Source of the DNA: a virus
Virus record (IMG/VR): IMGVR_UViG_3300033143_002031
Coordinates: 62,001 to 126,000 of that record
DNA: 64,000 bases
Strand: one strand, 5' to 3'
Shown: one piece after another, positions 4,629 through 31,709 of the stretch
Numbering within the stretch: position 1 is the stretch's first letter
How the letters are laid out: every line of letters begins with the position of its first letter
Position numbers and translations under genes: made by a program
Notes under the pieces: model-generated
The model's input: the letters and a program-made list of their open reading frames with translations, nothing else
Told to the model about the DNA's origin: nothing
The model's database searches: none

Positions 4629-4831
4629 CCAACAGGCGAAAGCGGGCTGGGCAGACCGTATATCTTGACGAGTCCGGGGAGGAGTACGTGCTTGACGGGG
4701 ACGGCAACCGTCAGCCTCCCATGCAATCTCGTGTCGTATCGAAGCCGGGCGAGTTCACGACCTTCGATGATAGCCAAGGTCACTGCGCTCTGTGCGGACG
4801 CTTGACGTGCCGAGGGGGGTGCTTCAAATGA
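4625..4831 (+). CDS. Small Cys-motif protein, 68 aa
   Basis: ATGA overlap with the preceding gene. A basic start (MTNRRKRAG) and C-terminal HCALCGRLTCRGGC, a probable single zinc site. Confidence 0.65.
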   Translation: MTNRRKRAGQTVYLDESGEEYVLDGDGNRQPPMQSRVVSKPGEFTTFDDSQGHCALCGRLTCRGGCFK

Positions 4832-4899
4832 CCGAGGAGTGCAAGCACGGGAACCAGACCAAGAAACAGGACCCACACCCCGCCAAAGGAAGAGAGACC

Positions 4900-5193
4900 A
4901 TGTTCAAGCCACTGCACGATAGGATCGTGATCAAGCAAGCCGAGGGTGACGAGAAGGTCGGCAGTATCATCATTCCCGACGAGGCTCGTGAGAAGCCGCT
5001 GGAAGGCACCGTGGTCGCTGTAGGGCCTGGCCGCGTGCTGGACACTGGGGAGTGTATCGTGCCCAGCGTGAAGGCGGGGGATACGGTTCTCTTCGCCAAG
5101 TTCACGGGTTCGGAAATCCAGATCGAGGGGGAGACCCACCTCATCGTTCACGAGCCGGACATCCTCGGTATCGTTCACTCGGCAAACTCCTAA
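4900..5193 (+). CDS. groES: Co-chaperonin GroES
   Basis: A 97-residue GroES-family protein. Hallmarks: N-terminal FKPLHDRIVIKQ, the mobile-loop region with IIIPDEAREKPLEGTVVAVG (hydrophobic III tripeptide that would contact the GroEL apical domain), VKAGDTVLFAKFTGSEI and C-terminal EPDILGIV. Length is normal for the family. ATG 4900 follows AAAGGAAGAGAGACC; an in-frame ATG at 4828 overlapping the previous stop would add a hydrophilic 24-residue extension and is less likely. No GroEL is seen in the window, so it presumably caps the host chaperonin, as T4 gp31 does (established for T4, inferred here). Confidence 0.93.
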   Translation: MFKPLHDRIVIKQAEGDEKVGSIIIPDEAREKPLEGTVVAVGPGRVLDTGECIVPSVKAGDTVLFAKFTGSEIQIEGETHLIVHEPDILGIVHSANS

Positions 5194-5214: not shown

Positions 5215-5239
5215 TACAATGACGACCCCCGAGCGGGGT
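5215..5239 (+). promoter_or_regulatory. -10 element with 5' hairpin
   Basis: TACAAT at 5215-5220 downstream of a GGCAAACTCC box (5181-5190). Predicted start about 5227 coincides with stem ACCCC/GGGGT (5225-5239, loop CGAGC), followed by AGTGAGGG and the ATG at 5255. Confidence 0.5.
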
Positions 5240-5254
5240 GAAAGTGAGGGCACC

Positions 5255-5820
5255 ATGGACAAGACTCTGACGGAGATCATCGTCATCTCGGACCGTAGCT
5301 CCTCAATGGCGACGGTGCGGGACGAGGCGATCAGTGGCTTCAACTCCTTCCTGAAGGAGCAGCAAGAGGCGGACATCGGCCGCTGTCTGCTCACCTACTG
5401 CCAGTTCAACACGGAGTACGAGATCGTTCACAACGGCATCCCGATCGAGGACATGAAGCCGCTGGACGCATCGACCAGGTGAAGGCACTGATCGAGCGCC
5501 AAGCCGACACCTACAAGTGGTCGTTCGTCTTCCTCGGCAAGGGTCTCGCTGCCTTTGACGGTGGCAGCCGCATGGTGGACATGGACCACAAGCAGATGTT
5601 CGTCGGGCTCGTCGGGGACGCCCCGCAGAGCCAGGCGCACGCCTACTACGCCGCGAGCCGCGCTGTCATCGGCACCCGGCGCAAGGCTGCGGGGGGCCAG
5701 TCGCTTGCGTTTTCGTCCGTGGAGAAGGATGCGTACACGAGCGTGCTCTCAGGTGACGTGGACGACGCCGAAGCCCTGAAGGACAGCGACGGCAGCACGC
5801 CGGACTCCTCGGGAGCGTGA
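5255..5820 (+). pseudogene. VWA-domain gene with internal deletion and frameshift
   Basis: The first frame (5255-5482, 75 aa) begins like a complete VWA protein: IIVISDRSSSMATVRDEA holds the DxSxS part of the metal site. It stops at 5480 after PLDAST. The second frame (from GTG 5479 to 5820) continues with the C-terminal third of such a domain (VKALIERQADTYKWSFVFLG). The middle, which should carry the metal-site Thr and the TDG aspartate (roughly 60 residues), is missing and the frames differ. Overlapping stop/start (GTGA) would still allow both pieces to be made. Read as a deletion-damaged gene. Confidence 0.6.
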
Positions 5821-6239: not shown

Positions 6240-6446
6240 ATGGGCCGGTGGATTTCACTCGACGCTGTTGAGAGGGAGGGCTGGTACGTGGCGAGGTACG
6301 ACACGCCCGAACAGCCCTACCGCGTGATCCGTGCACGAGTCGGGAAGGCGAGGTCGAGACGCTACAGTCACCGGGCTCCGATCGAGGTGTGGTCGGTGCC
6401 GATAGACGAGATGGGAAGCGAGGGGGTGGACGATGGAAAACTCTGA
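6240..6446 (+). CDS. Hypothetical basic protein, 68 aa
   Basis: Starts 12 nt after the palindrome (GGACGGACG before ATG). Arg-rich middle (RVIRARVGKARSRRYSHR). Overlaps the next gene by 14 nt. Confidence 0.6.
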   Translation: MGRWISLDAVEREGWYVARYDTPEQPYRVIRARVGKARSRRYSHRAPIEVWSVPIDEMGSEGVDDGKL

Positions 6447-6684
6447 TCCGGTGGCTGATGCCAACGTCAGACACCTGGAAGGGTGGGTGAGAGCAATGGA
6501 CGATTCTGCTGAGTTCAAGGCCGCACGACGGACGATGGCGAAGCATCTGCGAGAGGATGAGGGTCTGAGGCAGACCTACGAGGCCAACGTCGCGATGCTG
6601 CTTCACGATCGGCACGGCATCACCGACCACGACAAGCGCAACGCGGCGGCCAAGGACATCTTGCATCTGGTCTTCGAGTCATGA
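6433..6684 (+). CDS. Hypothetical helical protein, 83 aa
   Basis: Starts within the end of the previous gene. Mostly charged helix. No family recognised. Confidence 0.6.
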   Translation: MENSDPVADANVRHLEGWVRAMDDSAEFKAARRTMAKHLREDEGLRQTYEANVAMLLHDRHGITDHDKRNAAAKDILHLVFES

Positions 6685-6736
6685 GCAACAAAGACCACAT
6701 CCTTGTCACATCGAGAAGGCGGAAGCCATCTTGATT

Positions 6737-6785
6737 GGAAAACTCCCGTGACCTCGTGGTATTGTGCCCGGTGACGATCGTCACC
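6737..6785 (+). promoter_or_regulatory. Class II promoter with 5' hairpin
   Basis: GGAAAACTCC (6737-6746), 13 nt, TATTGT (6760-6765). A perfect 16-bp palindrome GGTGACGATCGTCACC (6770-6785) spans the predicted start and is followed by TGGAGG and the ATG at 6796. Confidence 0.65.
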
Positions 6786-6795
6786 TGGAGGTCCC

Positions 6796-7326
6796 ATGCA
6801 GGGGTTCGACGCTATCAAGATCAAGACGACTCGCCGTGAAGGCAACCGAGTCACTCTGACCATCGGCGGGGAGATCCTCGGGGGCAGCATCCGGGACCTC
6901 GGAGAGTTCGTCCGCCGCATGAAGCACCTGCACCGCAAGACGATGGGAGCAGCCCCACCGGCCGAGTTCTCTGAGCACGCTTTGTTCACCGAGACCGAGA
7001 GGCAGTCCCTTCGAGAGGTCGCGAAGTACAGGCCGCCAGACCCGACCAAGTTCACGCTGTTGATGTCCGCGCGGTCTGGAAAGATGGTAAAGGATCGCCA
7101 GTACAAGACCTTCAAGGCTGCGGAAACGGCACTGAGGAAAGCGATCAAGCGCGACCTCATGACCAGCAAGAATGACCTCTACCGCGTCCAACTGTGGTCC
7201 CCCGAGAAGCCAGGTCCGCAGACCAGGGTCGCCTCGTACAGCACGGACTATCGGCCCACATCGAGCAGCGTGTGGTACAAGCGCGACGAGCACGGCCATA
7301 AGACGATGTTCAAGGTCTACTCGTGA
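6796..7326 (+). CDS. Candidate internal virion protein with internal L-x-E motif, 176 aa
   Basis: First gene of the L-x-E cluster. A compact N-terminal domain (residues 1-50) precedes HALFTETERQSLREVA (about residues 62-77), an internal copy of the motif found at the N-termini of the next five genes; L-R-E-V would be the cleavage site. The C-terminal half is basic and beta-rich. If the motif is cleaved in the head, the first 75 residues would be a propeptide (inference). GTGA overlap with the next gene. Confidence 0.7.
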   Translation: MQGFDAIKIKTTRREGNRVTLTIGGEILGGSIRDLGEFVRRMKHLHRKTMGAAPPAEFSEHALFTETERQSLREVAKYRPPDPTKFTLLMSARSGKMVKDRQYKTFKAAETALRKAIKRDLMTSKNDLYRVQLWSPEKPGPQTRVASYSTDYRPTSSSVWYKRDEHGHKTMFKVYS

Positions 7327-7760
7327 AAACTCTCTTCACGGAAGGCGAGCGCCTCGGGCTTCGAGAGGCGAGGCAGACCAAGGTCTTTGGCAACGCCATG
7401 GGGCTCGTGGTCCGTAAGAGCAGCTATCCCGAGTCATTCGTGCGGCGCGGGCTCGACCTGAGAGAGCCGTTCACGGGCTACACCGTCAGCACACCAAAGC
7501 CTCACGACACCTTTCTCGGTGTCGTCGTGAAGAAGGGGAAGCAGTGGCACTATGCGGCGTCCCCTCGATACAAGACGGTGGCTAGGCGGGGTGCGATGCC
7601 GGCCCTCAAAGGGCTCGTCACGCGCTACATCACAGGCGTCATCGACAACGAGCTACGCATGAGCGATGGCACTCTGGACGGCGCGATCGAAGGGCTCGGC
7701 TGTCACATCCTCCAGCGACTTGCTCATGAGTGGGGCATCGTGAAGGAGTACGAACGATGA
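7323..7760 (+). CDS. L-x-E motif protein, candidate internal virion protein, 145 aa
   Basis: GTG start. Begins MKTLFTEGERLGLREA, with the consensus K-T-[LI]-F-T...R-x-x-L-x-E and A after the E. The remaining 130 residues are basic with no recognised domain. Coupled on both sides by 4-nt overlaps. Confidence 0.7.
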   Translation: MKTLFTEGERLGLREARQTKVFGNAMGLVVRKSSYPESFVRRGLDLREPFTGYTVSTPKPHDTFLGVVVKKGKQWHYAASPRYKTVARRGAMPALKGLVTRYITGVIDNELRMSDGTLDGAIEGLGCHILQRLAHEWGIVKEYER

Positions 7761-8785
7761 GGAAAACTCTCTTCACGAGGTCCAAGAGGCGAACCCTGAA
7801 GGAAGAGGCGGCCGGCGTCCCCCGTGCGATCGACATCATGGGGCAGTCCAAGGGGCTCTCCTACAAGGGGGCAACCATCGGCCGCATCCCGAACGCCTAC
7901 GTGGTCTACGCCACCAAGACGGACGGGGAGAAGACCGAGGTCGCCCGGTACTACTTCCAGGACGACAAGGCACGGGCGAAGCGCCACGCGAAGTGGGATG
8001 CCGAGAGCACCCTGAAGTCCCTGAAGCGCACTCTCGGTCTGTCCGAGGCGACCTATGAGGTGGATGCGAAAGCTCGGGCCGAGGCCAACCGTATCTGGGA
8101 CTCGATCATCTCCTACGTGAGGGGCCTCGACGGGGACTATGATTCGGTGGTCTGGACCCGCGACGGCATGATGACGATCTACCCGGTGCACACCAAGGTC
8201 CCCTACGGCATGAAGGTGTACCTTGGGCCACGGGGGATGACATCGGGCTACGGGACCGGCTCGCAGGGTAACGTCCTGGTCATCGGCAGCGTACTGTTGC
8301 ACCCGAAGGACACGACGTACCTCGACACTCGCATCACGTCCGCCTCGCTCAGGCATACGTTCGTCCACGAGTACGTTCACCACCTCGATCACATGCGTCG
8401 AGGAAAACTCCCGGACCGGCACGCCATGAGGGCTGCTCACGCTGGTGACATCGCGGGCTACCTCCGCACGCCCGAGGAGTTCAACGCCTGGTATCAGGAA
8501 ACGGCGCAGGCGGCAGAGGACAGCATCGCCGGAAAGATCAAGGTCATCGAGAGGTTCCGCTCGGTGGGCAAGGACGCGCTCGTCGTGAAGGTGGTGGCAG
8601 CCCTCCATCGGGACGTTGCCTCGTTCCCCGCGTTCCTGAAGTTCGTGGAGAAGCACAACGAGGCCGGGGACACCCTCGCGGTGCTGAAGGGCTCGAAGTG
8701 GGAGCGGAAGTGGCTCAAGCGGATGCACACGCTCTACCGGGGCCTGAAGCCGAAGGTGATGTCCATGTCGGCGGGGTCCAAGTGA
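7757..8785 (+). CDS. HEXXH metalloprotease-like protein with N-terminal L-x-E motif
   Basis: 342 aa. N-terminus MRKTLFTRSKRRTLKEEA is the shared motif. Residues 199-212 read RHTFVHEYVHHLDHM, a zincin HEXXH helix (H204, E205, H208), within a segment that also has YGTGSQGNVLVIGS. This predicts a zinc peptidase; the third ligand is not certain. Positively charged C-terminal helices follow. If targeted to the capsid it could be injected with DNA. Alternatively it could itself process head proteins, though it does not resemble the serine-type prohead proteases. Confidence 0.75.
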   Translation: MRKTLFTRSKRRTLKEEAAGVPRAIDIMGQSKGLSYKGATIGRIPNAYVVYATKTDGEKTEVARYYFQDDKARAKRHAKWDAESTLKSLKRTLGLSEATYEVDAKARAEANRIWDSIISYVRGLDGDYDSVVWTRDGMMTIYPVHTKVPYGMKVYLGPRGMTSGYGTGSQGNVLVIGSVLLHPKDTTYLDTRITSASLRHTFVHEYVHHLDHMRRGKLPDRHAMRAAHAGDIAGYLRTPEEFNAWYQETAQAAEDSIAGKIKVIERFRSVGKDALVVKVVAALHRDVASFPAFLKFVEKHNEAGDTLAVLKGSKWERKWLKRMHTLYRGLKPKVMSMSAGSK

Positions 8786-9141
8786 AAACTCTCTTCACCG
8801 AGGCCGAGCGAGCCGCCCTCTTGGAGGGCACCATCTGGCATCCGAGTCGCTCTTCGAGAAAACGGATGCGGCGCGTGCCCGGCCCGATCACGGACCCGAA
8901 CGAGGAGCCGCTGGGGTACAAGGTCGTGGGTTCGACCCTCTATGGCCGCGCGAGAGTCGTGTTGGACGGCCGGCGTATGATCCGGATTTACGAGTGGATC
9001 GACACCATGGGCTCAGAGGGCGGCCACGGGTGGAGGAAGGTCAAGAGGAAGGCCGAGCGGAACGAGGTGAAGAAGGCCCCGGGCAAGTGGGTCGACTTCA
9101 AGCCTGCGCTGGCTGCCTATCGGAAGGTCTACGAGCCATGA
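8782..9141 (+). CDS. L-x-E motif protein, 119 aa
   Basis: GTG start. MKTLFTEAERAALLEG at the N-terminus, then a basic protein with RKVKRKAERNEVKKAP. No domain recognised; ATGA overlap with the next gene. Confidence 0.7.
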   Translation: MKTLFTEAERAALLEGTIWHPSRSSRKRMRRVPGPITDPNEEPLGYKVVGSTLYGRARVVLDGRRMIRIYEWIDTMGSEGGHGWRKVKRKAERNEVKKAPGKWVDFKPALAAYRKVYEP

Positions 9142-9737
9142 GGAAAACTCTCTTCACGGCGGCGCAGCGGGTGGCTCTGAGGGAGTCGGCAGGTGACCCG
9201 TTCGTTGGCCTATCGCCTGAGCTACAGGAAGCGATGCGTCGGTTCGCGGAGCACCTCGCCTTTTGGATGGGCAACACCAGCAAGTACAGCGTCAAGGAAC
9301 TGCTCAAGATCTGGAAGGACAGCCCCGAGTTGCGAGCGTGGCTCAAGCGCCACGTCAACCTGGCGTCCTACACGCTCTACTACGGCACCACGACCAACGA
9401 TCGAAAGCTCCACGTAGGGGCCGCATGGAAGGGACCATCGGGCACTCAGCACTGGAGCACCGACCCTCATCGGTCGAGAGGGTTCGCAGGGCTCAATGGC
9501 AGGGTTGGGGGCTGGCCCAAGCCAGGTGGTGTACTCGTGCAGGCCCATGCGGCAGCGGCAGCGGTGATCGTTGACGTGGACCGTTTCAGCCACGTCTGCG
9601 GTCTGCACCGCGCCTCGTTCTCGAAGCTCATGACCAAGAACGACCCGAAGGAGATGTTCAGCGGCGAAGCCTACGAGGCCGAGGTGATAACGACCTCTGC
9701 CGTCAAGGGGAAGGTCACCGAGGTCGAGTGGTTCTGA
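9138..9737 (+). CDS. Putative ADP-ribosyltransferase with N-terminal L-x-E motif
   Basis: 199 aa. N-terminus MRKTLFTAAQRVALRESA. The body has the spaced signature of ADP-ribosyltransferase folds: an aromatic-Gly step (ASYTLYYGTT, residues 77-86), an STS-like strand (HWSTDPHRSRGFAG, 105-118) and a late ExE (YEAEVIT, 179-185). The first-position Arg of the classical R-S-E triad is not obvious (Tyr81 or His72 nearby). T4 Alt, the known head-packaged phage ADP-ribosyltransferase, has the same N-terminal logic. Fold call is inference. Confidence 0.55.
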   Translation: MRKTLFTAAQRVALRESAGDPFVGLSPELQEAMRRFAEHLAFWMGNTSKYSVKELLKIWKDSPELRAWLKRHVNLASYTLYYGTTTNDRKLHVGAAWKGPSGTQHWSTDPHRSRGFAGLNGRVGGWPKPGGVLVQAHAAAAAVIVDVDRFSHVCGLHRASFSKLMTKNDPKEMFSGEAYEAEVITTSAVKGKVTEVEWF

Positions 9738-9747
9738 TCAACCCCGT

Positions 9748-9776
9748 GCGACCAATGGTCGCACCTGGAAAACTCC
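9748..9776 (+). promoter_or_regulatory. Palindrome plus GGAAAACTCC unit, copy A
   Basis: GCGACCAATGGTCGC (9748-9762), ACCT, then GGAAAACTCC (9767-9776). With TACAGT at 9790-9795 (13-nt gap) it forms a class II promoter whose start falls on the ATG at 9803 (leaderless). The whole 29-bp unit recurs exactly at 10066-10094. Confidence 0.75.
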
Positions 9777-9802
9777 CCGGCCCCCGTGGTACAGTCCCCC
9801 TC

Positions 9803-10054
9803 ATGAAGACGATCTTCACCGAGGCAGCGCGCCAGGCGCTTTATGAGGCGGCCCCTGTGATGGTGACAGTACCTTCGTTGCTGCTCTACCTGAAGCGGGA
9901 AAAGCAGCGTCTAAACGTCGGAATTACAAGTCTAAAACCGACCCAGCGGAAACAAGTGGAGCACACCATTTCGGTCCTCGACAGGATGATCGAGACGGTC
10001 GAGAAGTACAGCAAAAGTGGTAACCACGGAAGCCTGACCTTTCACCGTCCGTGA
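9803..10054 (+). CDS. L-x-E motif protein, 83 aa
   Basis: MKTIFTEAARQALYEAA at the N-terminus; residues after that form a hydrophobic-basic helical protein with no domain. ATG lies 8 nt after the predicted -10, so the message should be leaderless. Fifth N-terminal copy of the motif. Confidence 0.7.
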   Translation: MKTIFTEAARQALYEAAPVMVTVPSLLLYLKREKQRLNVGITSLKPTQRKQVEHTISVLDRMIETVEKYSKSGNHGSLTFHRP

Positions 10055-10065
10055 GCAGCCCTCCT

Positions 10066-10094
10066 GCGACCAATGGTCGCACCTGGAAAACTCC
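10066..10094 (+). promoter_or_regulatory. Palindrome plus GGAAAACTCC unit, copy B
   Basis: Identical 29-bp copy of the unit at 9748. Here it is followed by a class I promoter rather than a class II -10. Confidence 0.75.
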
Positions 10095-10665: not shown

Positions 10666-11157
10666 ATGGAGTTCGTGGCCTTCATACGGCCCAAAGGAGA
10701 GTCCGGCCCGGTGCATATCAGCGCCTCGCCTGACCCTCATCGTATGCTGGCAATCCTTCAGGTTGGCAACCCGGCCGAACTCGAACTGATCGGCACCGTG
10801 GATGCTGCCCTCTACCCCGAGTCGTGGTGGCACGACACCCTGAGCCCCTGGCGTCACAGGGACGCCTGGTACCAGCCCAAGGCTCAGGTGCTCTGCCGGG
10901 TCGAGGATGCCCTCACAGGCGCTCTGGAGGCCCCAGAGAGGTTCGACCCACTGGAGGACCCTCCCGAGCCCTCAGACGGCTCTCAGGCCCCTCCTGACCG
11001 TGTTCCTGCCGACCTTCGGACCAAGACCCGAGAGGAACTAGTGGCTGAGAAGTGGGCCTGGCCTGTGGTGGACCCTTACCCACCCGTGAAGACGACCTCG
11101 ATTCCCGTGACCCGTGTCCTACCGCTGATCCGAAAACTCCTGCACGCGGCAGCGTAG
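10666..11157 (+). CDS. Degenerate GIY-YIG (T5orf172/MUG113-like) domain protein, 163 aa
   Basis: Residues 1-45 (FVAFIRPKGESGPVHISASP, then PHRMLAILQVGNP) follow the pattern of MUG113/T5orf172 GIY-YIG domains: a YFI-like strand, GP[IV]KIG, P..RL..LQ.GNP. The KIG is HIS here; the Arg is kept (HRM) but the catalytic Tyr is replaced. Pro-rich linker and a C-terminal basic segment follow. Likely an inactive or diverged nuclease domain; similarity is by eye. Confidence 0.55.
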   Translation: MEFVAFIRPKGESGPVHISASPDPHRMLAILQVGNPAELELIGTVDAALYPESWWHDTLSPWRHRDAWYQPKAQVLCRVEDALTGALEAPERFDPLEDPPEPSDGSQAPPDRVPADLRTKTREELVAEKWAWPVVDPYPPVKTTSIPVTRVLPLIRKLLHAAA

Positions 11158-12050
11158 CCCCTCCAATCACGCCCCTTGCGAACCTCTCACAGAGGCCGCT
11201 TTTCGACCCTTTTCGGCCTTTGCGACTGATTGGTCGCACCCCCAATGATCGAGACCCCAAAGCTAGATCGTGCTGAATTGCCCCTCTCACGGCCCTTGTG
11301 GAGCCCTTCTGCCTGCCCCTGGGACGGACCGCCCTGAGAGTCCTGACGGCCTTTGGTGCGGCCCTCCTGAGCCCTCGAAGATCGGTCTCGCGGAACCCGT
11401 CCCTCGGCCGGCGGAGAAGACCTCCCTCTCTACTCGCGGGCGCAGGAGACCGGCGGGACAGAAGAACGAAGTTCCCCTAAGCACGACTGAGCTACCCCTG
11501 ATACTAGTCCCCCAAGAGAGACCTACGGAGGAGCCTGTGCAGTGGGCTGGCGTTCTGGCCCTTGCGACCTCGTGCGACCTCATGGTCGGCCCGATTTCAC
11601 CAGGTTCCGGGGAGTTTTCATACACTTACGGCCCGGAGTGTCTGAAAACTACCCCTTTTTGGGGGGCCTGAGATCGCGCCTCGCGACGGCCACCCCCGGT
11701 CCTGAAAACTCCCCCATTCCGGGGGGTTCCACGACACGACCGCCAATAGGGGGAGTTTTCAGTGACGCCGCCGCCCTTCGCAGGGAAGCGGGTTCCGATC
11801 TTCCATCCGCCGGCCCTGCGACCTGCCCCTCCTATGGGAGGCACGGGCAGTCGTTGTCGGGTCAGGGGGCGGGGGCTCGCGGGGGCGGCCCCGGGGGCAG
11901 AAGGGTTCTTCCGCTGGCAGAAGGATTCTTCTGATCGGGTGATAGCCCAATGGTATCGGGCACTTAGGTGCTAGCGTTCGGGGACCCGGGACCCTACGAT
12001 GATCGGTCTGGCCCTGGGGCAGGTAGTTTGCTCCTCCGCCCCTACCCCTG
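11158..12050. other. Long non-coding regulatory region with inverted TGAAAACTCC boxes
   Basis: No supported gene. Holds a variant palindrome (11222-11237) and four boxes in two inverted pairs: GGGGAGTTTTCA (from 11612) with TGAAAACTACCCC (from 11643), and TGAAAACTCCCCC (from 11703) with GGGGGAGTTTTCA (to 11761). Around 11940-11995 is a tRNA-like stretch without a usable anticodon arm. Composition is C/G-skewed and unlike the surrounding genes. Confidence 0.6.
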
Positions 12051-23697: not shown

Positions 23698-24029
23698 CCG
23701 ATCTCGGCTGTGCGTGCGTGTGCTCGATGGACCACGAGGGGGCTGATGTCTCGGGAACGATGATCATCACTGCCCGGAAGAAGCACACATGCTGCGAGTG
23801 CGGGGAGGCAATCTCCCCAGGCGAACGCTACGAGGTGATCTCCGGGCTCTGGGAGGGCTCTTGGGATCGCTACAAGACCTGCCTGCCGTGCCAACGCATC
23901 CGAGACGACCTCTGCTCGTGCGGCTACCTCTTCGGAGGGCTGCGAGAGGCGATCTGGGAGGCGCTGGGGTTCGATTACGTGTCCGGGGAGTTTGCCACCA
24001 AGGGGCTGTGGAAGGACGAGGGCACATGA
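23694..24029 (+). CDS. Conserved zinc-binding phage protein, 111 aa
   Basis: KKHTCCECGEAISPGERYE, CLPCQRIRDDLCSCGYLFG and ALGFDYV match a widely distributed phage family with two zinc sites. Function unknown. Confidence 0.75.
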   Translation: MTDLGCACVCSMDHEGADVSGTMIITARKKHTCCECGEAISPGERYEVISGLWEGSWDRYKTCLPCQRIRDDLCSCGYLFGGLREAIWEALGFDYVSGEFATKGLWKDEGT

Positions 24030-24226
24030 GCGGTCGAGATGAGGGGGTTGTCCGCATGGATGCCCAGATGTGGGCACTCGTGGCCGAGTTGGAGGCACTG
24101 AAGACGGAGCGCGCCGGCATGGAGGCCCTGAATCAGGGCAACGGTGGCCCCGGGTACGACGAAGAGGCGTTCTACGACGTCGCCAAGCGCATGAGTGATG
24201 TCGCGAGACGGCTCCGAGAGGTGTGA
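24026..24226 (+). CDS. Coiled-coil protein, 66 aa
   Basis: ATGA overlap; helix MWALVAELEALKTERAGMEA. Unknown. Confidence 0.6.
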   Translation: MSGRDEGVVRMDAQMWALVAELEALKTERAGMEALNQGNGGPGYDEEAFYDVAKRMSDVARRLREV

Positions 24227-24227
24227 A

Positions 24228-24476
24228 ATGTCGGACAGCGGTGGGAGCACAGGTGGGGTAGGACTGGCCACGGTTCTGACGATCGTTTTCGTGGTGCTCA
24301 AACTCACGGACGTGATCGACTGGTCGTGGTGGTGGGTGCTGTCCCCCACACTGATCGATGTTGGTCTCCTGGTCTTTCTGCTCCTCAGTGCCCTGCTCGC
24401 GAAGGCATCGGACAGGACGTGGACAGACGACCCAGACGCCGGGGAAGACCCCTGGACGTGGCCGGAGGGGGAGTGA
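24228..24476 (+). CDS. Two-helix membrane protein ('Fragile-X-F'-type)
   Basis: 82 aa with TM1 VLTIVFVVLKLTDVIDW and TM2 IDVGLLVFLLLSALLA around WSWWWVLSP, the signature of small phage membrane proteins annotated as transmembrane Fragile-X-F. Role unknown; could act in lysis or exclusion. Confidence 0.75.
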   Translation: MSDSGGSTGGVGLATVLTIVFVVLKLTDVIDWSWWWVLSPTLIDVGLLVFLLLSALLAKASDRTWTDDPDAGEDPWTWPEGE

Positions 24477-24477
24477 G

Positions 24478-24672
24478 ATGGACCCTGACGCGGCGATTCG
24501 AGAGCTACGCAAGCTCCACGCGAGCGGAGGACCGGGCGACTTCGAGCGCGTGATGGAACTGATCTGCGAACTGGACACCTGGCTACTGCGTGGTGGGTGT
24601 CCTCCCAAGGACTGGCAGGCTGCCTTCGGACCCTCCGAGGTGCGCGGCCGGCTGATAGACAGGAGGACGTGA
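24478..24672 (+). CDS. Hypothetical protein, 64 aa
   Basis: GGAGGGGGAGTGAG before ATG. Helical with MDPDAAIRELRKLHAS; resembles a common phage family of unknown function. TGATG coupling to the next gene. Confidence 0.6.
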   Translation: MDPDAAIRELRKLHASGGPGDFERVMELICELDTWLLRGGCPPKDWQAAFGPSEVRGRLIDRRT

Positions 24673-25067
24673 TGGGTGAACCGAGCCTGGTAGTTATCAC
24701 GGAGGGCTTCGGCCCTTACATGCTGCGACCGCAGCGACCGATCACTGTCATCGTTGAGCACTCTCCCTGCTTCGTCATGGGGAGACCAAACGATGACCTA
24801 CTCGATCGCATCTCCACCACGCCGACCATCAGCGATACCGTCGAGGAGGTGGTCAATCGGTTCACTATGCGCGGGGACACGGCACAGCCTGCCGGTGTCC
24901 CGATCCGACTTCACCTTATGGGGACGGTGGCCTGGGAGATTGCGAAGGCGCTTCTCGACGTGAACGACAAGAATATCATTCGGCCTGGGAGGGACCGGAT
25001 CTTCGAGGCGCTTCATGCAGTCAAGGTCGTGGATGTCAACGGCCTCACGATCGAGGTCCAGCCGTAA
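24672..25067 (+). CDS. Hypothetical protein, 131 aa
   Basis: Mixed alpha/beta, SPCFVMGRPNDDLLDRI. No domain recognised. Confidence 0.6.
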   Translation: MGEPSLVVITEGFGPYMLRPQRPITVIVEHSPCFVMGRPNDDLLDRISTTPTISDTVEEVVNRFTMRGDTAQPAGVPIRLHLMGTVAWEIAKALLDVNDKNIIRPGRDRIFEALHAVKVVDVNGLTIEVQP

Positions 25068-25093
25068 CGACACTGCAAGAGGAGATACAGACG

Positions 25094-25321
25094 ATGGGCG
25101 AGCGAGTGGAATGTGTGATCGAGCACGACGTACTGCTGGAGGCCGACGACGGGCGGCGCGTGGTCGGTGTGACGGCGACCTGCACGTGCTGTGACACCGT
25201 GACGCAGGCGTTCGGGACGTCCTCGGCGTCGGTCCGGAGGTGCCTGGCACAGATGCGAGAGGAGTGCCCCGGGGGCGAGAACAGCTTCTACTACGCCGAC
25301 GACGGGTCGGACGATGGGTGA
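25094..25321 (+). CDS. Small CxxC protein, 75 aa
   Basis: AAGAGGAGATACAGACG before ATG. ATCTCCDTVTQAFG near the centre. Unknown. Confidence 0.6.
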   Translation: MGERVECVIEHDVLLEADDGRRVVGVTATCTCCDTVTQAFGTSSASVRRCLAQMREECPGGENSFYYADDGSDDG

Positions 25322-26090
25322 GCGGCACCGCAGCGAGGACCCCTACAACTGGGGCATGACCAACGCCATGCAGGACGACTGCGAAAACTGCCACTTCGCC
25401 TCGGCAGGCGGTCCGGACAAGCGCACCGCCATGGAGGCCCCGAGCTACGTGCCCGAGGACCAGGCCGAAGAGTTCCTGCGAGGCTACCGGGCCTACTGCG
25501 ACGAGCACTACGGTGAGGGCTGGCAGACCATGAAGTGGGGCTGGCACCCTGCGCTCGTGATCGGCGGGGAGAAGGGGCCAACAGACGAGTCGAAGATCGT
25601 GAACACGCCCGAAGAGGCCGCCAAGGTGTTCGGAGGAGACGAGATGGTGGACAAGACGGATGAGGGAATAAGCCTGGACGAGGCGATCGACCATGCGATG
25701 GCGAAGGCGGATGAGTGCGAGAAGTCCGGCGAAGAGGAGTGCGAGTTCGAGCACAGGAAGCTGGTTCGGTGGCTTACCGAGCTAGATGCGCTCCGTTACC
25801 GGGTGAAGCAACAGGCCAAGGACTTGGACACCACGCACGAGAAGCTGCGCGAACTGCATCGGGACGTCAGCGTCTCTCTGGACGAAGAGGTGCATGTGCG
25901 AGTCGAAATCTCCCAGTTCGACAAGCGCTGGCGCCACGCGAACAGTATCTCTCGCGATGCGTTTGCGGCACCGTTGCGCGGAGGTCTTCAGGGGGGCGAG
26001 GGTGAGCACAAGGCCGAGGTGCTACGGGACGTGATCGAGAGGGTCGCCTACGAGGCCGCGATCGGCTTCTTCGGGGAGACGCGACGGTGA
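25314..26090 (+). CDS. Hypothetical coiled-coil protein, 258 aa
   Basis: Starts inside the end of the previous gene. N-terminal CENCHFAS motif; residues 135-190 are a charged coiled coil (RVKQQAKDLDTTHEKLRELH). Unknown. GTGA overlap with the glycosyltransferase gene. Confidence 0.65.
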   Translation: MGERHRSEDPYNWGMTNAMQDDCENCHFASAGGPDKRTAMEAPSYVPEDQAEEFLRGYRAYCDEHYGEGWQTMKWGWHPALVIGGEKGPTDESKIVNTPEEAAKVFGGDEMVDKTDEGISLDEAIDHAMAKADECEKSGEEECEFEHRKLVRWLTELDALRYRVKQQAKDLDTTHEKLRELHRDVSVSLDEEVHVRVEISQFDKRWRHANSISRDAFAAPLRGGLQGGEGEHKAEVLRDVIERVAYEAAIGFFGETRR

Positions 26091-27479: not shown

Positions 27480-27491
27480 CTGGGCTCATGG

Positions 27492-27563
27492 TGACCTGGA
27501 CGGGACTCGAACCCGCGTTTCCCGGCTTGAAAGGCCGGAGTCCTTCCTGTAGACGACCAGGCC
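27492..27563 (-). tRNA. tRNA-Glu (UUC)
   Basis: 72 nt; anticodon loop decodes GAA; acceptor GGCCTGG/CCAGGTC, A73, encoded CCA. Last tRNA of the array. Confidence 0.92.
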
Positions 27564-27568
27564 GAGGG

Positions 27569-27640
27569 AGCCCCCGGGCGGAATCGAACCGCCTCCTCCG
27601 GAGTACGAAACCGGCACGCCACCTTTTGCGCCTCGGGGGC
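27569..27640 (-). tRNA. tRNA-Thr (CGU)
   Basis: Decodes ACG; acceptor GCCCCCG/CGGGGGC; U-U mismatch at 31-39; no encoded CCA. Confidence 0.82.
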
Positions 27641-27644
27641 CTGG

Positions 27645-27717
27645 AGCCCACGTCGGGAGTCGAACCCAAAAACTCCTGCTTACAAGGCAGGCGCTCCGCC
27701 ACCGGAGCCACGCGGGC
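27645..27717 (-). tRNA. tRNA-Thr (UGU)
   Basis: Decodes ACA; acceptor GCCCGCG with one G-U; encoded CCA. Confidence 0.92.
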
Positions 27718-27745
27718 AGGCTGCGACGATCGAGCATCTTCGTAG

Positions 27746-27816
27746 TGACTCTGAGGGGAATCGAACCCCCATTGCCGGATTGAGAGTCCGGTCTCCTACC
27801 GTTAGAGGACAGAGCC
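27746..27816 (-). tRNA. tRNA-Glu (CUC)
   Basis: Decodes GAG; acceptor GGCTCTG/CAGAGTC, A73; no encoded CCA. Confidence 0.9.
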
Positions 27817-27939
27817 GAGCGGCATCCCCCTTGTACCTAGCAAAGGGGGCGTGCCCACACCCCGAAAGGGGCTCGGTCCAACGACCGATGAGACGCAGCT
27901 AGGAGCGCCGTGCGCGCACGAGAGGCCGAAGCCCCACGG

Positions 27940-28011
27940 TGCCGATCACGGGAGTCGAACCCGTCTCTCCAGGATGGCGACCTGGCGTCTTCCCACGTAG
28001 ACTTGATCGGC
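27940..28011 (-). tRNA. tRNA-Gly (GCC), C33 variant
   Basis: Acceptor GCCGATC/GATCGGC. Loop TCGCCAT has C instead of the near-universal U33. Confidence 0.82.
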
Positions 28012-28015
28012 ATGG

Positions 28016-28100
28016 CGGCGAGCGGAGGTCTTGATCCCCACGCCTTGTGAGCGCGCACCGATTAGCAGCCGGGCTCGGGCTCCTGCCCAATTCACTCGCC
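28016..28100 (-). tRNA. tRNA-Ser (GCU)
   Basis: 85 nt with long variable arm and G73; loop CTGCTAA. T-loop starts with A instead of T54. Confidence 0.85.
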
Positions 28101-28109
28101 AAACTCTGG

Positions 28110-28193
28110 CGGCAGACGGAGGTCTTGATCCCCACTCCTCTCAGAGCGCACCGCTTTCGAGGCGGGCTCGGGCTCCTGCCCAATTCATCTGCC
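28110..28193 (-). tRNA. tRNA-Ser (CGA)
   Basis: Long variable arm, G73, loop CTCGAAA. T-arm identical to the GCU copy, including A54. Confidence 0.85.
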
Positions 28194-28280
28194 AGGTGCC
28201 CGCATGGCTGCACGGGCGACACCGCACCCCCACACGGGCGCGCTCCGGCCCCTCATACGGGATAATAGGGAGCGCAACAG

Positions 28281-28363
28281 CGGCAGACGGGTGACTCGAA
28301 CGCCACGCCTCTCAGCGCGCACCGCCTTCCAAGCGGGCCTGGTCCCTGACCAGTTCGTCTGCC
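28281..28363 (-). tRNA. tRNA-Ser (GGA)
   Basis: Acceptor GGCAGAC/GTCTGCC, G73, long variable arm, loop TTGGAAG; normal T-loop. Confidence 0.88.
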
Positions 28364-28599
28364 AGTGGCGGAGGGCGGAGGTCACGATCCCCACACCTCT
28401 CGGTGCCTGTCGCTTTCAAGACGATGGCGAGCCCTGCTCGCTTCGCCCTCCTCGCTTCAAGCTCCTCGATCCATCTCGCGAGGACGTGAACCCCAGCCAA
28501 GGCATGGTCTGGAGGGATACGTGTGTCGCGATTCCAGTTACGGCAGATGGATTCGAGAGCGATCTTGGCTCGTCTGATGTCGTCTATCTCAGGAGGCAT
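28312..28599 (-). CDS. Doubtful 95-aa protein overlapping tRNA-Ser genes
   Basis: First 50 residues (IDDIRRAKIALESICRNWNR, then RWIEELEARRAKR) look protein-like, but the frame runs through tRNA-Ser(UGA) and into tRNA-Ser(GGA). The end may be lost to array growth. Confidence 0.3.
   Translation of the reverse strand: MPPEIDDIRRAKIALESICRNWNRDTRIPPDHALAGVHVLARWIEELEARRAKRAGLAIVLKATGTERCGDRDLRPPPLADELVRDQARLEGGAR
28369..28451 (-). tRNA. tRNA-Ser (UGA)
   Basis: Acceptor GGAGGGC/GCCCTCC, G73; loop CTTGAAA; weak outer pair in the anticodon stem. Confidence 0.82.
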
Positions 28600-28623
28600 C
28601 CTGAGACCGGCAGTATATCACGG

Positions 28624-28695
28624 TCGGGCACCGGGGAGTCGAACCCCGCGCCTCCGGTCCCCCAGACCGGCGTCTCACCCCGAGACTAGTGCCCG
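28624..28695 (-). tRNA. tRNA-Pro (GGG)
   Basis: Decodes CCC; acceptor CGGGCAC/GTGCCCG (C1-G72 as usual for Pro), A73. Confidence 0.9.
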
Positions 28696-28731
28696 GTGTG
28701 CCCCCTCCGAAGAGGGGACGAGAAAACTCGA

Positions 28732-29295
28732 TCAGTCGGACTCCAGAGCCCCGTGCCAGTAGACCCACGAAGCCCACTGGTCTGGCAAGGAATCACTCGC
28801 GTCGATGTGGAGAGCGACGACCGGCAGCGAGCGCGGCTTCACGGGCGTCCTCTTCAGGCGCATCCCCGCTTGCTGCGGCGTCCGGTCCCGCTTCCGATCA
28901 TTGCATGGGTAGCAGGCGGTGACGATGTTCTCCCAGACCGTCTTGCCGCCCCTCGACCTCGGTGTTACATGGTCGTAGTTGAGCTTACGGGTGGACAGCC
29001 TCTTCCCGCAGTACTGGCAGGTCCAGTTGTCCCGCGTCAGCACGTTCATGCGCGAGAACCGAACCGCCTTCTTGCGCGCGACCGCCCGCAGGAGCCGGAT
29101 GACGGCCGGCATCTTCAGCACGAACGTCCAGCCGTACTCCTTCGCCCGATCTGCCTGATCGGGGGTCATGAGGGCCTCATCGTAGCTCTCTACGACTTCG
29201 GCCTTGTGTTGGAAGAGCAACGAGACGGCCCGTTGCCAGGACACGATGCGGTGGGGTTGGTACCCCAGGTCCAGGACCAAGCATTGGCTAGACAT
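28732..29295 (-). CDS. HNH endonuclease
   Basis: 187 aa, AGGAGG upstream on the minus strand. CLVLDLGYQPHRIVSWQRAV, FSRMNVLTRDNWTCQYCGK, NYDHVTPRSRGG and ENIVTACYPCNDRKRDRTP match the common HNH family in which DH and the final N/R residues are catalytic and CxxC pairs bind zinc. It sits inside the tRNA array, a typical place for a homing-type or free-standing nuclease; it may drive rearrangement of the array (inference). Confidence 0.9.
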   Translation of the reverse strand: MSSQCLVLDLGYQPHRIVSWQRAVSLLFQHKAEVVESYDEALMTPDQADRAKEYGWTFVLKMPAVIRLLRAVARKKAVRFSRMNVLTRDNWTCQYCGKRLSTRKLNYDHVTPRSRGGKTVWENIVTACYPCNDRKRDRTPQQAGMRLKRTPVKPRSLPVVALHIDASDSLPDQWASWVYWHGALESD

Positions 29296-29330
29296 GACCG
29301 CCTCCTTTCTTGGTGCGAAAACTCTACCAG

Positions 29331-29413
29331 TGCGAGCGGGGGGAGTCGAACCCCCATGACCTCGCGGCCGGCGGGTTTTGAACCCGCTGCGTCTACCATT
29401 TCACCACGCTCGC
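29331..29413 (-). tRNA. tRNA-Leu (CAA)
   Basis: 83 nt, long variable arm; loop TTCAAAA decodes TTG; acceptor GCGAGCG/CGCTCGC. Confidence 0.92.
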
Positions 29414-29419
29414 GCGGAG

Positions 29420-29503
29420 TGCCCGCTGCGGGACTCGAACCCGCACGCCCGCACGGGGCGCCCGGGTTTAGGCCGGGTGCGTCTACCGTTTCACCAAGCG
29501 GGC
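29420..29503 (-). tRNA. tRNA-Leu (UAA), C33 variant
   Basis: Leu-type structure, acceptor GCCCGCT/AGCGGGC; loop CCTAAAC with C33. Confidence 0.85.
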
Positions 29504-29508
29504 AACGG

Positions 29509-29592
29509 TGCTGCGGACAGGAGTCGAACCTGCACGACCTCTCGGCCACTGGCCCCTCAAGCCAGCGCGTCTACCAATTTCACCACCGCAGC
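29509..29592 (-). tRNA. tRNA-Leu (GAG)
   Basis: Decodes CTC; acceptor GCTGCGG/CCGCAGC. Confidence 0.92.
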
Positions 29593-29598
29593 AGGCAC

Positions 29599-29625
29599 AA
29601 AACACAACTTTCAAAGTTATGTTTT
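29599..29625. other. AT-rich inverted repeat between tRNA-Leu genes
   Basis: AAAACACAACTTT and AAAGTTATGTTTT face each other with a single-base centre; the most AT-rich spot in the array. Confidence 0.5.
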
Positions 29626-29633
29626 GACATCGG

Positions 29634-29716
29634 TGCCAGGGAGAGGAGTCGAACCTCCACGACCTTTCGGCCACTCGGGTCTGAGCCGAGCGCGTCTACC
29701 ATTTCACCACCCTGGC
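29634..29716 (-). tRNA. tRNA-Leu (CAG)
   Basis: Decodes CTG; acceptor GCCAGGG/CCCTGGC. Confidence 0.92.
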
Positions 29717-29720
29717 ATGG

Positions 29721-29791
29721 TGGGCGATGAGGGAGTTGAACCCCCGACTCTGGTGTGTGGGACCAGCATCTTTCCGTTCGACCAATCGCCC
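29721..29791 (-). tRNA. tRNA-Val (CAC), C33 variant
   Basis: Acceptor GGGCGAT/ATCGCCC, A73, encoded CCA; loop CCCACAC with C33. Confidence 0.82.
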
Positions 29792-29803
29792 AGAAATCTC
29801 TGG

Positions 29804-29877
29804 TCGGGCAGAAGGGATTTGAACCCCCGACCTCCGCGTCCCGAACGCGGCGCGCTACCAGGCTGCGCTACTGCCCG
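29804..29877 (-). tRNA. tRNA-Pro (CGG)
   Basis: Decodes CCG; acceptor CGGGCAG/CTGCCCG, encoded CCA. Confidence 0.92.
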
Positions 29878-29963
29878 AATGAGGGGCCGACCGCACACTC
29901 GCTTTGCCCAGGCCGTGAAGCCTCCATCCTCCTACCGGGTCAGGCCAGCCCGACGCCCCTCGG

Positions 29964-30032
29964 TCGCACGGGAGAGACTTGAACTCTCGCGGTCACGGAT
30001 ATGAGCCGTGCCTCCCACCTTGGGACCGTGCG
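29964..30032 (-). tRNA. tRNA with CAU anticodon (Met or Ile2), copy 1
   Basis: Acceptor CGCACGG/CCGTGCG, loop CTCATAT. Cannot tell elongator Met from lysidine-modified Ile by sequence alone. Confidence 0.82.
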
Positions 30033-30033
30033 G

Positions 30034-30109
30034 AAGCGGGGGGAGGATTTGAACCTCCGATCTTTTGGTTATGAGCCAAATGGGGACGACCAGACTCCCC
30101 TACCCCGCA
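30034..30109 (-). tRNA. tRNA with CAU anticodon (Met), copy 2
   Basis: Loop CTCATAA, D-loop with GG, T-arm GGAGG/CCTCC. First acceptor pair is T-T, so position 1 is unpaired as in initiators, but the anticodon stem lacks the GGG/CCC of initiator tRNAs. Confidence 0.78.
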
Positions 30110-30111
30110 GG

Positions 30112-30185
30112 AGCCCTTGGCGAGACTCGAACTCGCAACTCCCACCTTCGGAGGGTGGTGCCCGTTCCAATCGGGCCGCAAGGGC
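30112..30185 (-). tRNA. tRNA-Arg (CCG)
   Basis: Decodes CGG; acceptor GCCCTTG/CAAGGGC. Confidence 0.88.
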
Positions 30186-30201
30186 ATGGTAAACTCTGGG
30201 T

Positions 30202-30348
30202 ATGGCAAAACGTCAGTACGAGAAGCCGACCTTCAAGCACGTCAAGGGGTTCGCCTTCATCATGCGCTGCACCCCGTGCCCTGATTGCAGGAACGGTGTG
30301 ACCTGCCATCGCTGTAGTTGCTGCCACGGCTGCCACGGCTGCCACTAG
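30202..30348 (+). CDS. Cys/His-rich microprotein antisense to the tRNA array, 48 aa
   Basis: Plus-strand frame between tRNA-Arg(CCG) and tRNA-Arg(ACG). Basic start (MAKRQYEKPTFKHVKG), then RCTPCPDCRNGVTCHRC and a repeated CHG tail. The GGTAAACTCT box lies just upstream. No Shine-Dalgarno, so leaderless if real. Confidence 0.5.
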   Translation: MAKRQYEKPTFKHVKGFAFIMRCTPCPDCRNGVTCHRCSCCHGCHGCH

Positions 30349-30420
30349 CCTCCCCACGAGGACTCGAACCTCGATCTCAAGATCCGTAATCTTGCGTGAT
30401 GTCCATTTCACTATGGGGAG
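30349..30420 (-). tRNA. tRNA-Arg (ACG)
   Basis: Decodes CGT (CGY with inosine); acceptor CTCCCCA/TGGGGAG, G73. Confidence 0.9.
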
Positions 30421-30422
30421 AG

Positions 30423-30494
30423 ACCAGCCGGCGGGACTCGAACCCGCGATGCACGGGAGTAGAAGTCCCGCTCCCCTCCAGTGGGGTCGGCTGG
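30423..30494 (-). tRNA. tRNA-Arg (UCU)
   Basis: Decodes AGA; acceptor CCAGCCG/CGGCTGG. Confidence 0.9.
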
Positions 30495-30498
30495 ACGG

Positions 30499-30570
30499 AG
30501 GCCCCGGGGGGAGTCGGACCCACCGATTCCTGGTTTGCAGCCAGGCGTCTTTCCGTTTGACTACGGGGCC
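30499..30570 (-). tRNA. tRNA-Cys (GCA)
   Basis: Decodes TGC; U73 as expected for Cys; acceptor GGCCCCG. T-loop reads TCCGACT (C at 55). Confidence 0.88.
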
Positions 30571-30606
30571 AGTAGCTCGTCCGGCTTCACCGGCACAGAG
30601 CGGACG

Positions 30607-30625
30607 GCGGGACTCGAACCCGCCT
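30607..30625 (-). pseudogene. tRNA remnant: isolated T-arm
   Basis: GGCGGGACTCGAACCCGCC is a complete T-arm with no matching anticodon or D-arm beside it. Confidence 0.6.
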
Positions 30626-30629
30626 CTGG

Positions 30630-30700
30630 TGCAGGTAGGGGGAGTCGAACCCCCGATTCGAGGGTGGAAACCTCGCGTCTTTCCGTTAGACCACACCTGC
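30630..30700 (-). tRNA. tRNA-Gly (UCC)
   Basis: Decodes GGA; acceptor GCAGGTG/TACCTGC with one G-U. Confidence 0.9.
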
Positions 30701-30709
30701 GAAACAGCG

Positions 30710-30779
30710 ATCTGTGCGGGACTCGGACCCGCTTCTCCGGGCTCGGCCCGGTGTTCGTCCTATGAACTACATCGACCGC
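30710..30779 (-). pseudogene. Degenerate tRNA
   Basis: D-arm-like and T-arm (GCGGGTCCGAGTCCCGC) present, but the acceptor has two mismatches and the anticodon stem cannot form a proper 7-nt loop. Confidence 0.5.
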
Positions 30780-30848
30780 TGCCTACTCGCGCCCGCTCTT
30801 CTCAGGGTACTGGTCGACGCTTCCCCTGAGCCTCCTGGGAGCTTTCGG

Positions 30849-30921
30849 AGCCCCGAGCGGGGATCGAACCCGCCATCTCCGCCATACCAAGGCGGCGAAT
30901 CACCACTGATTCTTTCGGGGC
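30849..30921 (-). tRNA. tRNA-Thr (GGU)
   Basis: Decodes ACC; acceptor GCCCCGA/TCGGGGC. Confidence 0.9.
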
Positions 30922-30947
30922 AAGCGCCCCCTACCCGCTGCAAGGCT

Positions 30948-30966
30948 AGGAGGGAATCGAACCCTC
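30948..30966 (-). pseudogene. tRNA remnant: isolated T-arm
   Basis: GAGGGAATCGAACCCTC within 30948-30966 stands alone. Confidence 0.55.
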
Positions 30967-30978
30967 GTAGGGGACTGT

Positions 30979-31055
30979 TGGACACGGAGGGAATCGAACC
31001 CTCATCTCCGGCTTGCAAGGCCGGCGTCTTCCCGTTTGACGACGCGCCCGTGTCC
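30979..31055 (-). tRNA. tRNA-Ala (UGC)
   Basis: Decodes GCA; acceptor GGACACG/CGTGTCC, A73. Confidence 0.9.
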
Positions 31056-31124
31056 AGGTGAGGCAAGCTCGGGAATCAGGTTGCGCTACCCTCGTCCCAA
31101 CGCAAGGCGCGTCCTCACCCAGAG

Positions 31125-31197
31125 TGGATCGTGCGAGAGTTGAACTCGCGACCTCCTGCATGCGAAGCAGGTGCTCTCCCAACTGAGCTAACGACCC
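31125..31197 (-). tRNA. tRNA-Ala (CGC)
   Basis: Decodes GCG; acceptor GGGTCGT/ACGATCC. Confidence 0.9.
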
Positions 31198-31200
31198 AAA

Positions 31201-31310
31201 CTGCCGGCGCTCTTACCACTTGAGCTACGAAGGCCGTTTTAGGGCCTCCGACAGGACTCGAACCTGCATCTCCGGACTCGCCGACGCTCTACCACTTGAG
31301 CTACGGACAC
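31201..31310 (-). pseudogene. Two tRNA remnants (5' half; shrunken anticodon arm)
   Basis: 31201-31235 is a D-arm half (TTGAGCTACGA context) with no 3' half. 31240-31310 has D- and T-arms but only 14 nt where the 17-nt anticodon arm should be. Confidence 0.5.
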
Positions 31311-31321
31311 CAATTGGCGAC

Positions 31322-31342
31322 CGACGGGACTCGAACCCGCAC
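31322..31342 (-). pseudogene. tRNA remnant: isolated T-arm
   Basis: GACGGGACTCGAACCCGC with no other arms. Confidence 0.5.
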
Positions 31343-31352
31343 CTTCGGCTAG

Positions 31353-31425
31353 TGGAACACCGGGGAATCGAACCCCGAACCTCCTGGCTGCCAGCCAGAC
31401 GCTCTCCCAGTTGAGCTAGTGCCCC
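31353..31425 (-). tRNA. tRNA-Ala (GGC)
   Basis: Decodes GCC; acceptor GGGGCAC/GTGTTCC with two G-U pairs. Confidence 0.88.
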
Positions 31426-31429
31426 ATGG

Positions 31430-31501
31430 TGGGCGTGGAGGGATTTGAACCCCCGATCTTCTGCGCGTCGAGCAGACGTCTTGCCACTTGACCACACGCC
31501 C
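31430..31501 (-). tRNA. tRNA-Val (GAC), C33 variant
   Basis: Acceptor GGGCGTG/CACGCCC, A73, encoded CCA; loop TCGACGC with C33. Confidence 0.82.
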
Positions 31502-31705: not shown

Positions 31706-31709
31706 ATGG

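Follow-up and report, generated by a model that had tools for sequence, protein, structure and literature searches.

A cassette of tagged genes

The window analyzed here is a stretch of 64,000 nucleotides (nt) of virus DNA, corresponding to bases 62001-126000 of the 184,744-bp record IMGVR_UViG_3300033143_002031 (the whole genome, that of a large uncultured T4-like phage, is denoted G000). Between positions 6796 and 10054 lies a cassette of six plus-strand genes, five of which encode proteins that open with a common short tag ending in L-x-E, while the remaining one carries the motif internally (Table 1). All six reading frames were confirmed at the positions given by the first-pass annotation, and the tagged genes start with GTG (7323 and 8782) or ATG (7757, 9138, and 9803). 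Genes of G000 were called by a simple codon-usage method of our own, and their starts are computed. Within the cassette, genes one to five overlap their neighbors by 4 nt, stop to start (GTGA/ATGA), as in an operon, and the sixth has its own promoter-like element upstream.

The five tagged proteins open with M(R)KT[LI]FT..(x)R..LxE, in which L-x-E falls at residues 13-16. The sites read LREA, LKEE, LLEG, LRES, and LYEA; a small residue follows L-x-E in four of them, the exceptions being LKE/E and the internal LRE/V (within motifs, a slash marks the predicted cleavage position).

Table 1. Features of the cassette, together with gene 40 and the prohead protease. Dotted ranges are window positions.
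Feature	Position	Strand	Remarks
Promoter-like element TTGGAAAACTCC ... TATTGT, upstream of the cassette	6735..6765	+	exact consensus in intergenic DNA; function putative
Putative cargo protein 1, basic, 176 aa, tag motif internal	6796..7326	+	charge +9.1 per 100 residues
Internal tag ALFTETERQSLREV, residues 62-75, equal to HALFTETERQSLRE/V	6976..7017	+	LREV at residues 72-75
Putative tagged cargo protein 2, 145 aa	7323..7760	+	GTG start overlapping the previous stop
Tag MKTLFTEGERLGLRE/A	7323..7367	+	predicted propeptide
Putative tagged cargo protein 3, 342 aa	7757..8785	+	HExxH metallopeptidase-like (HEYVHHLDH)
Tag MRKTLFTRSKRRTLKE/E	7757..7804	+	
Second predicted cleavage site LSE/ATYEVDAKARAEAN, within the HExxH protein	8039..8047	+	aligns with the G001 LYE/ATYEADAKARAEAN tag site
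Putative tagged cargo protein 4, 119 aa from the GTG start	8782..9141	+	very basic (+10.1 per 100 residues)
Tag MKTLFTEAERAALLE/G	8782..8826	+	
Putative tagged cargo protein 5, 199 aa	9138..9737	+	ADP-ribosyltransferase-like by eye only, unconfirmed
Tag MRKTLFTAAQRVALRE/S	9138..9185	+	
Palindrome GCGACCAATGGTCGC then CTGGAAAACTCC ... TACAGT, before the last tagged gene	9748..9795	+	function putative
Putative tagged cargo protein 6, 83 aa	9803..10054	+	
Tag MKTIFTEAARQALYE/A	9803..9847	+	
Gene 40, 1000 aa	32,462-35,464		modules joined by repeated EDVDDLxE linkers
gp21-type prohead protease	G000 154019-155722		Pfam Peptidase_S77, E 2e-18; PHROG 'head maturation protease', 7e-47

The tag is specific and conserved as a peptide

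A regular expression for the tag pattern gave six genuine plus-strand matches in the window, plus two minus-strand frames that are unrelated. The pattern [LI]F[TS]..R..LxE within the first 30 residues occurred in four called proteins and in none of 300 proteome shuffles; the fifth tagged protein is absent from this count because its start was mis-called. When N-terminal 20-mers were compared all against all in an unbiased way, the tagged proteins were the most connected of the genome, and in blast comparisons among the six cassette proteins the tag was the sole similarity.

Relatives of the phage were gathered by a capsid protein search of viral contigs, which gave 41 loci, and parts of several contigs were read; at the DNA level, the first 8 kb used as the query found no relative in the phage collection. 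A position-specific scoring matrix (PSSM) built from the five N-terminal tags only gave 36-40 bits on its own tags and 22.6 bits on the internal tag of the 6796 gene. Over 2.04 Mb of sequence from the phage and its relatives, scores above 15.2 bits were confined to the cassette, three genes of the relative G003, genes 33 and 39 of G000, and the gene 39 orthologue of the relative G004. These results establish the tag as a sequence feature and confirm the first-pass annotation, which had reported five adjacent tagged but otherwise unrelated proteins and a sixth with the motif inside.

In the conserved columns of the tag, the sequences differ by 0.11 per site at codon positions 1 and 2 and by 0.46 at position 3, and in the variable columns by 0.56 and 0.52, respectively. 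Because the codons of conserved residues vary at their third position but not at the first two, the conservation is at the protein level. This pattern makes it extremely improbable that the similarity is a DNA-level feature (a promoter, a recombination seam, or recently copied 5' ends) instead of a functional peptide. Such an origin would fit four tags with almost identical first codons, as well as the 9-mer GGAAAACTC, which is present not only in promoter-like elements between genes but also where two tags begin, seven of its nine exact copies in the window lying within 6435-10093. Other tag copies, however, use different codons for identical residues, and the identical DNA does not reach the R, L, and E columns. 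The near-identity of the first 15 bases in four tags and the presence of GGAAAACTC in nearby intergenic elements thus point to a contribution from recent copying or from a recombination seam. The GGAAAACTC cluster is possibly a recombination seam for cargo exchange, which is compatible with the tag being a capsid-targeting propeptide, as proposed below.

A T4-type head module with a gp21-type protease

The head module of G000, at 146-157 kb, encodes terminase, portal, a protein of unknown function, an acidic core-like protein, the prohead protease, and the capsid protein. The portal protein (gp20) matches Portal_T4 (E 3e-72), and the capsid protein matches Gp23 (E 8e-73). The protease aligns with T4 gp21 (structure 5JBL, 3e-7) across the region with GELDHP and GISSRGFG, where gp21 has its catalytic His and Ser. 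These matches establish the types of protease and capsid; the first-pass annotation had made its proposal depend on a gp21-type protease, and G000 encodes one of family S77 with both the His and Ser motifs. A system of the phiKZ type (S80, A/S-x-E) does not fit, because Pfam gives S77 and the conserved sites are L-x-E.

In addition, L-x-E is present at about residues 57-60 in 14 of 15 related capsid proteins, and T4 gp23 loses a 65-residue propeptide at a comparable position. The occurrence of L-x-E at the processing position of the capsid protein therefore supports cleavage at L-x-E independently of the tags.

Two further observations concern this module. The large terminase (G000 146566-149742) reads as split by an intein-like insertion (CVPVGSLVLL ... 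VDGVLVHN). A short second S77-like protein, which does not have GELxHP, is found in G003 (37353-37796, 147 aa), where it adjoins the groES/tag locus, and in the relative G001 (10862-11299, 145 aa), and has no match among the genes called in G000. It might be a paralogue of the protease that has diverged, as with gp117 of SPN3US.

Exchange of putative cargo behind a constant tag

In G003 (42,674 bp), the groES gene, the vWA gene, two small upstream genes, and the downstream FIRPKG gene share 72-83% DNA identity with the window, and window positions 6680-9744 have no match. The G003 interval between these flanks holds three genes opening with MRKTLFTEEERQALLSE, MTWKTLFSEARRRALYEA, and MRKTLFTEAERQTLCEA, whose products are unrelated to the six proteins of the window except for the tag. 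The motif search of related phages that had been suggested at the outset thus recovered the same tag in three genes of G003 and a related start in G004. These comparisons indicate a constant tag, a fixed locus, and swapped cargo between G000 and G003, which is the pattern reported for the internal proteins (IPs) of T-even phages (PMC3012670). A locus search via the flanking FIRPKG gene found nothing, and a search with the vWA gene gave 80 loci, none with the tag apart from G003 itself.

The tagged proteins are more basic than the others (Mann-Whitney p = 2e-5), with net charges per 100 residues of +4 to +10 for the six cassette proteins and +1 to +11.5 for the three G003 proteins, compared with a median of -2.3 for other proteins. 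Could they be core or scaffold components that are degraded in maturation and not delivered active? T4 gp22, gp67, and gp68, which gp21 cuts into peptides (PMC9958956), offer a precedent, and the many LxE sites of several proteins would agree with it. Core proteins, however, are conserved between relatives, whereas between G000 and G003 the entire cassette has been exchanged; moreover, one member has an HExxH motif, and most cassette proteins contain few internal LxE sites. We therefore consider degradation unlikely.

For all six cassette proteins, including the 176-aa protein, Pfam, PHROGs, and PADLOC gave nothing above cut-offs, and PDB sequence searches with two cargo proteins gave nothing. 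For the protein encoded at 9138-9737, no match was obtained in Pfam, PHROGs, PDB sequences, phages, or viral or genome contigs, and its single-sequence fold model was unusable (pLDDT 36); the ADP-ribosyltransferase motifs seen in it (LYYGTT ... STDPHRSRGFAG ... EAYEAEV) were assigned by eye and are unconfirmed, as is the by-eye resemblance of a 200-aa protein of G003 to such enzymes. Modeled from two sequences, the HExxH domain (pLDDT 66) gave no significant fold match. The enzyme labels for the cargo are weak, consisting of the visible HExxH motif and the by-eye ADP-ribosyltransferase lead.

A different tag in a relative and modular proteins

In G001 (49,791 bp), differently tagged genes are located just downstream of the portal, scaffold, protease, and capsid genes. 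Their pattern is M[RTS]L[SA]xxL..EA, and their starts include MRLSEQLAGAIAEA, MTLSGKLEEA, MRLSEELQGALTE, MSLARQLYEA, MSLAKQLHEA, and others. The regular expression gave eight N-terminal matches, which represent seven distinct genes of about 71, since overlapping fetched stretches listed one gene twice; it gave no match in nine other relatives or in G000. One of these tagged proteins, MSLARQLYEATYEADAKARAEAN of G001 (G001/L009), is the homologue of the window HExxH protein (43% identity), with the homology starting at LYE/ATYE in G001 and at LSE/ATYE (residue 95) in the window protein. Because this boundary lies at LxE/A, the window protein looks like a tag followed by a short domain, L-x-E, and an enzyme domain, and the two versions would mature to an identical N-terminus. 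The persistence of the L-x-E ending in tags that differ among relatives suggests co-evolution of tag and core. Starts of the form MF[RK].LI.EC...L.E in G020 (96264 and 96603) and G016 (46196) may represent a third, clade-specific tag, with members too few to claim it.

The head-region genes 33 (28.3 kb) and 39 (30.4 kb) of G000 have a related start, [IV]FTEAQR..L.AL followed by SE or G, and gene 39, which contains a HEIGH motif, has an orthologue with an identical tag type in G004. These tags bear on whether the tag might be a docking or localization signal unrelated to heads, such as an import or partner-binding peptide of proteins that work within the infected cell, with a coincidental LxE ending. 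The position of the cassette among accessory genes with non-head promoter-like elements would be consistent with this, as would a tubulin-like gene, which suggests that the phage organizes the host cell. Nevertheless, a non-head signal seems improbable, since the tag family also occurs on genes 33 and 39, the LxE-ending tag of G001 is carried by genes immediately downstream of the protease and capsid genes, and homology boundaries coincide with LxE/A.

Gene 40 contains seven [DE]DLxE sites (0.045 expected after shuffling), which divide it into modules of about 60-200 residues. The genes at its place in G003 and G004 are similar in the first and last segments, with mostly different modules between, and the group is characterized by ..GI.PTLP..LxE at the start and FxxLxGxxPLPxRRLxE at the end. 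Gene 32 holds SLDEA, SLDEA, and SLDEG, and the domain after SLDEG corresponds to a protein of about 100 aa that stands alone in Tunturiibacter phage Tunturi_5. Genes 32 and 40 might thus be strings of cargo modules freed by the prohead protease. Tentatively, and leaning slightly against it ourselves, we raise a broader role for this enzyme as a general means of cargo release, in which exchangeable, folded modules between repeated EDVDDL[DSG]E/[AGR] sites would be freed in the head and one gene would deliver many effectors to the host. Also in the head-cargo region, a NUDIX-like protein is present as a tandem duplication (534 aa, G000 23735-25339), and as a single copy (261 aa) in G004.

Neighboring genes and DNA elements

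The promoter-like consensus TTGG[AC]AAACTCC is common to the cassette and the accessory genes of the 57-96 kb region. The near-perfect palindrome GCGACCAATGGTCGC occurs six times in the window (6213, 9748, 10066, 33645, 51122, and 61242; 0.4 expected), is conserved in G003 at the 9748 locus, and is followed directly by the promoter-like element TGGAAAACTCC at 9748 and 10066; it is likely to be an operator, terminator, or promoter element.

A groES-like co-chaperonin gene (window 4828-5193) adjoins the cargo locus, as it does in G003; folding of gp23 in T4-type heads requires a co-chaperonin. The vWA gene (window 5219-5820) consists of two short frames that lack about 55 middle residues and looks broken, its G003 counterpart being a single frame of 239 aa. 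A cluster of 39 tRNA genes occupies window 27489-33197 on the minus strand. The tubulin/FtsZ-like gene (G000 40031-40996; Pfam Tubulin 3e-10, TubZ C-terminal 6e-7) has a longer N-terminal segment in relatives.

Discussion

The first-pass annotation likened the tag to an N-terminal sequence shared by T4 head proteins. This comparison holds for IPI-III, which start with MKTYQEF/MKTFKEF and whose tags end in [LI]xE/A, but not for Alt, which is not described as sharing that start; the 10-aa capsid-targeting sequence (CTS) is conserved in IPII and IPIII only (PMC9958956). The accompanying observation, that the tag differs from T4 in sequence but agrees in position, length, and cleavage consensus, also stands. 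In IPIII, the first ten residues suffice for targeting, residues 4 and 7 being important for targeting and residues 8 and 10 for processing (PMC9026906). Anti-restriction proteins of diverse kinds carry a conserved CTS (PMC3012670, PMC12373910), and the injected proteins IP1-3 each block a different type IV restriction enzyme (PMC12373910). Inside the head, the packaged DNA surrounds the T4 internal proteins, whose lysines touch the DNA phosphates (PMC3012670).

As in T4 IPI-III, a short N-terminal sequence, here a predicted propeptide, with an [LI]xE/A end is carried by otherwise unrelated, basic, fast-changing proteins, and the genome that encodes them also has a gp21-family protease, gp23, and gp20. 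In contrast to T4, the tag reads MKTLFTExER..LxE rather than MKT[YF]xEF.AE and has 15-16 residues rather than about 10, the cargo is larger and partly enzyme-like, close relatives have different tags, and there are extra modular multi-site proteins. The L/I-x-E processing predicted here would resemble that of T4 Alt, a head-packaged ADP-ribosyltransferase cleaved at ITE-6 and LTE-619 (PMC5694885), whereas no sequence relation to Alt is detectable and the enzyme assignment of cassette and G003 proteins is by eye. In phiKZ and SPN3US, many head proteins are, as predicted here, processed by the protease and ejected, and paralogues share a common N-terminal sequence; those phages, however, use an S80 protease and long propeptides, with cleavage sites of S/A/G-x-E in phiKZ-type phages and A-x-E in SPN3US (PMC5694885), unlike the S77 protease, L-x-E sites, and short uniform tags on unrelated proteins seen here. 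In P1, an N-terminal signal loads the defense-related protein DarB into the head (PMC9024508), DarB being a single very large protein of an unrelated phage. By sequence, the present system does not belong to the IP family and appears to work like the T4 CTS, in phages with a T4 head module.

Each prediction of the first-pass annotation that could be checked at the sequence level turned out in its favor. We consider it highly probable that the 15-16-residue tag is a capsid-targeting propeptide, and that the protease frees basic cargo in the head, which enters the next host with the DNA. We infer that the tag would dock its carrier protein onto the prohead core during head assembly, that the gp21-type protease would cut after L-x-E and free the packaged cargo among the DNA, and that the injected cargo would act early, in counter-defense or takeover. 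The locus would serve as a cargo bay, in which the tag is constant while related phages exchange the genes that follow it.

Several points weigh against this explanation. Some 80 kb separate the cassette from the portal-protease-capsid genes; its neighbors are small accessory genes, and its promoter-like element was not seen before head genes. The tag sequence is unrelated to the T4 CTS, having in common with MKTYQEFIAEA of IPII/IPIII only MKT, an aromatic residue, and the LxE/A ending. One tag is internal (the 6796 gene), another reads LKE/E in place of LxE/[AGS], and in G003 one tag has LLSEV where a clean LxE would be expected. The first ~15 nt are nearly identical as DNA in four tags, and recent copying could explain part of the tag conservation. 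Finally, LxE[AGS] at N-termini is enriched only about 2-fold genome-wide, and a simple count of LxE[AGS] per protein (152 observed, 113 expected) is only weakly informative; the case does not rest on this count.

What phages carry in the head and inject is among the most poorly known aspects of their biology, and such proteins are a prime source of counter-defense factors. A tag that can be read from sequence would allow the cargo of a phage group to be named from genomes alone, including proteins without any family match, and such tags could serve as loading signals.

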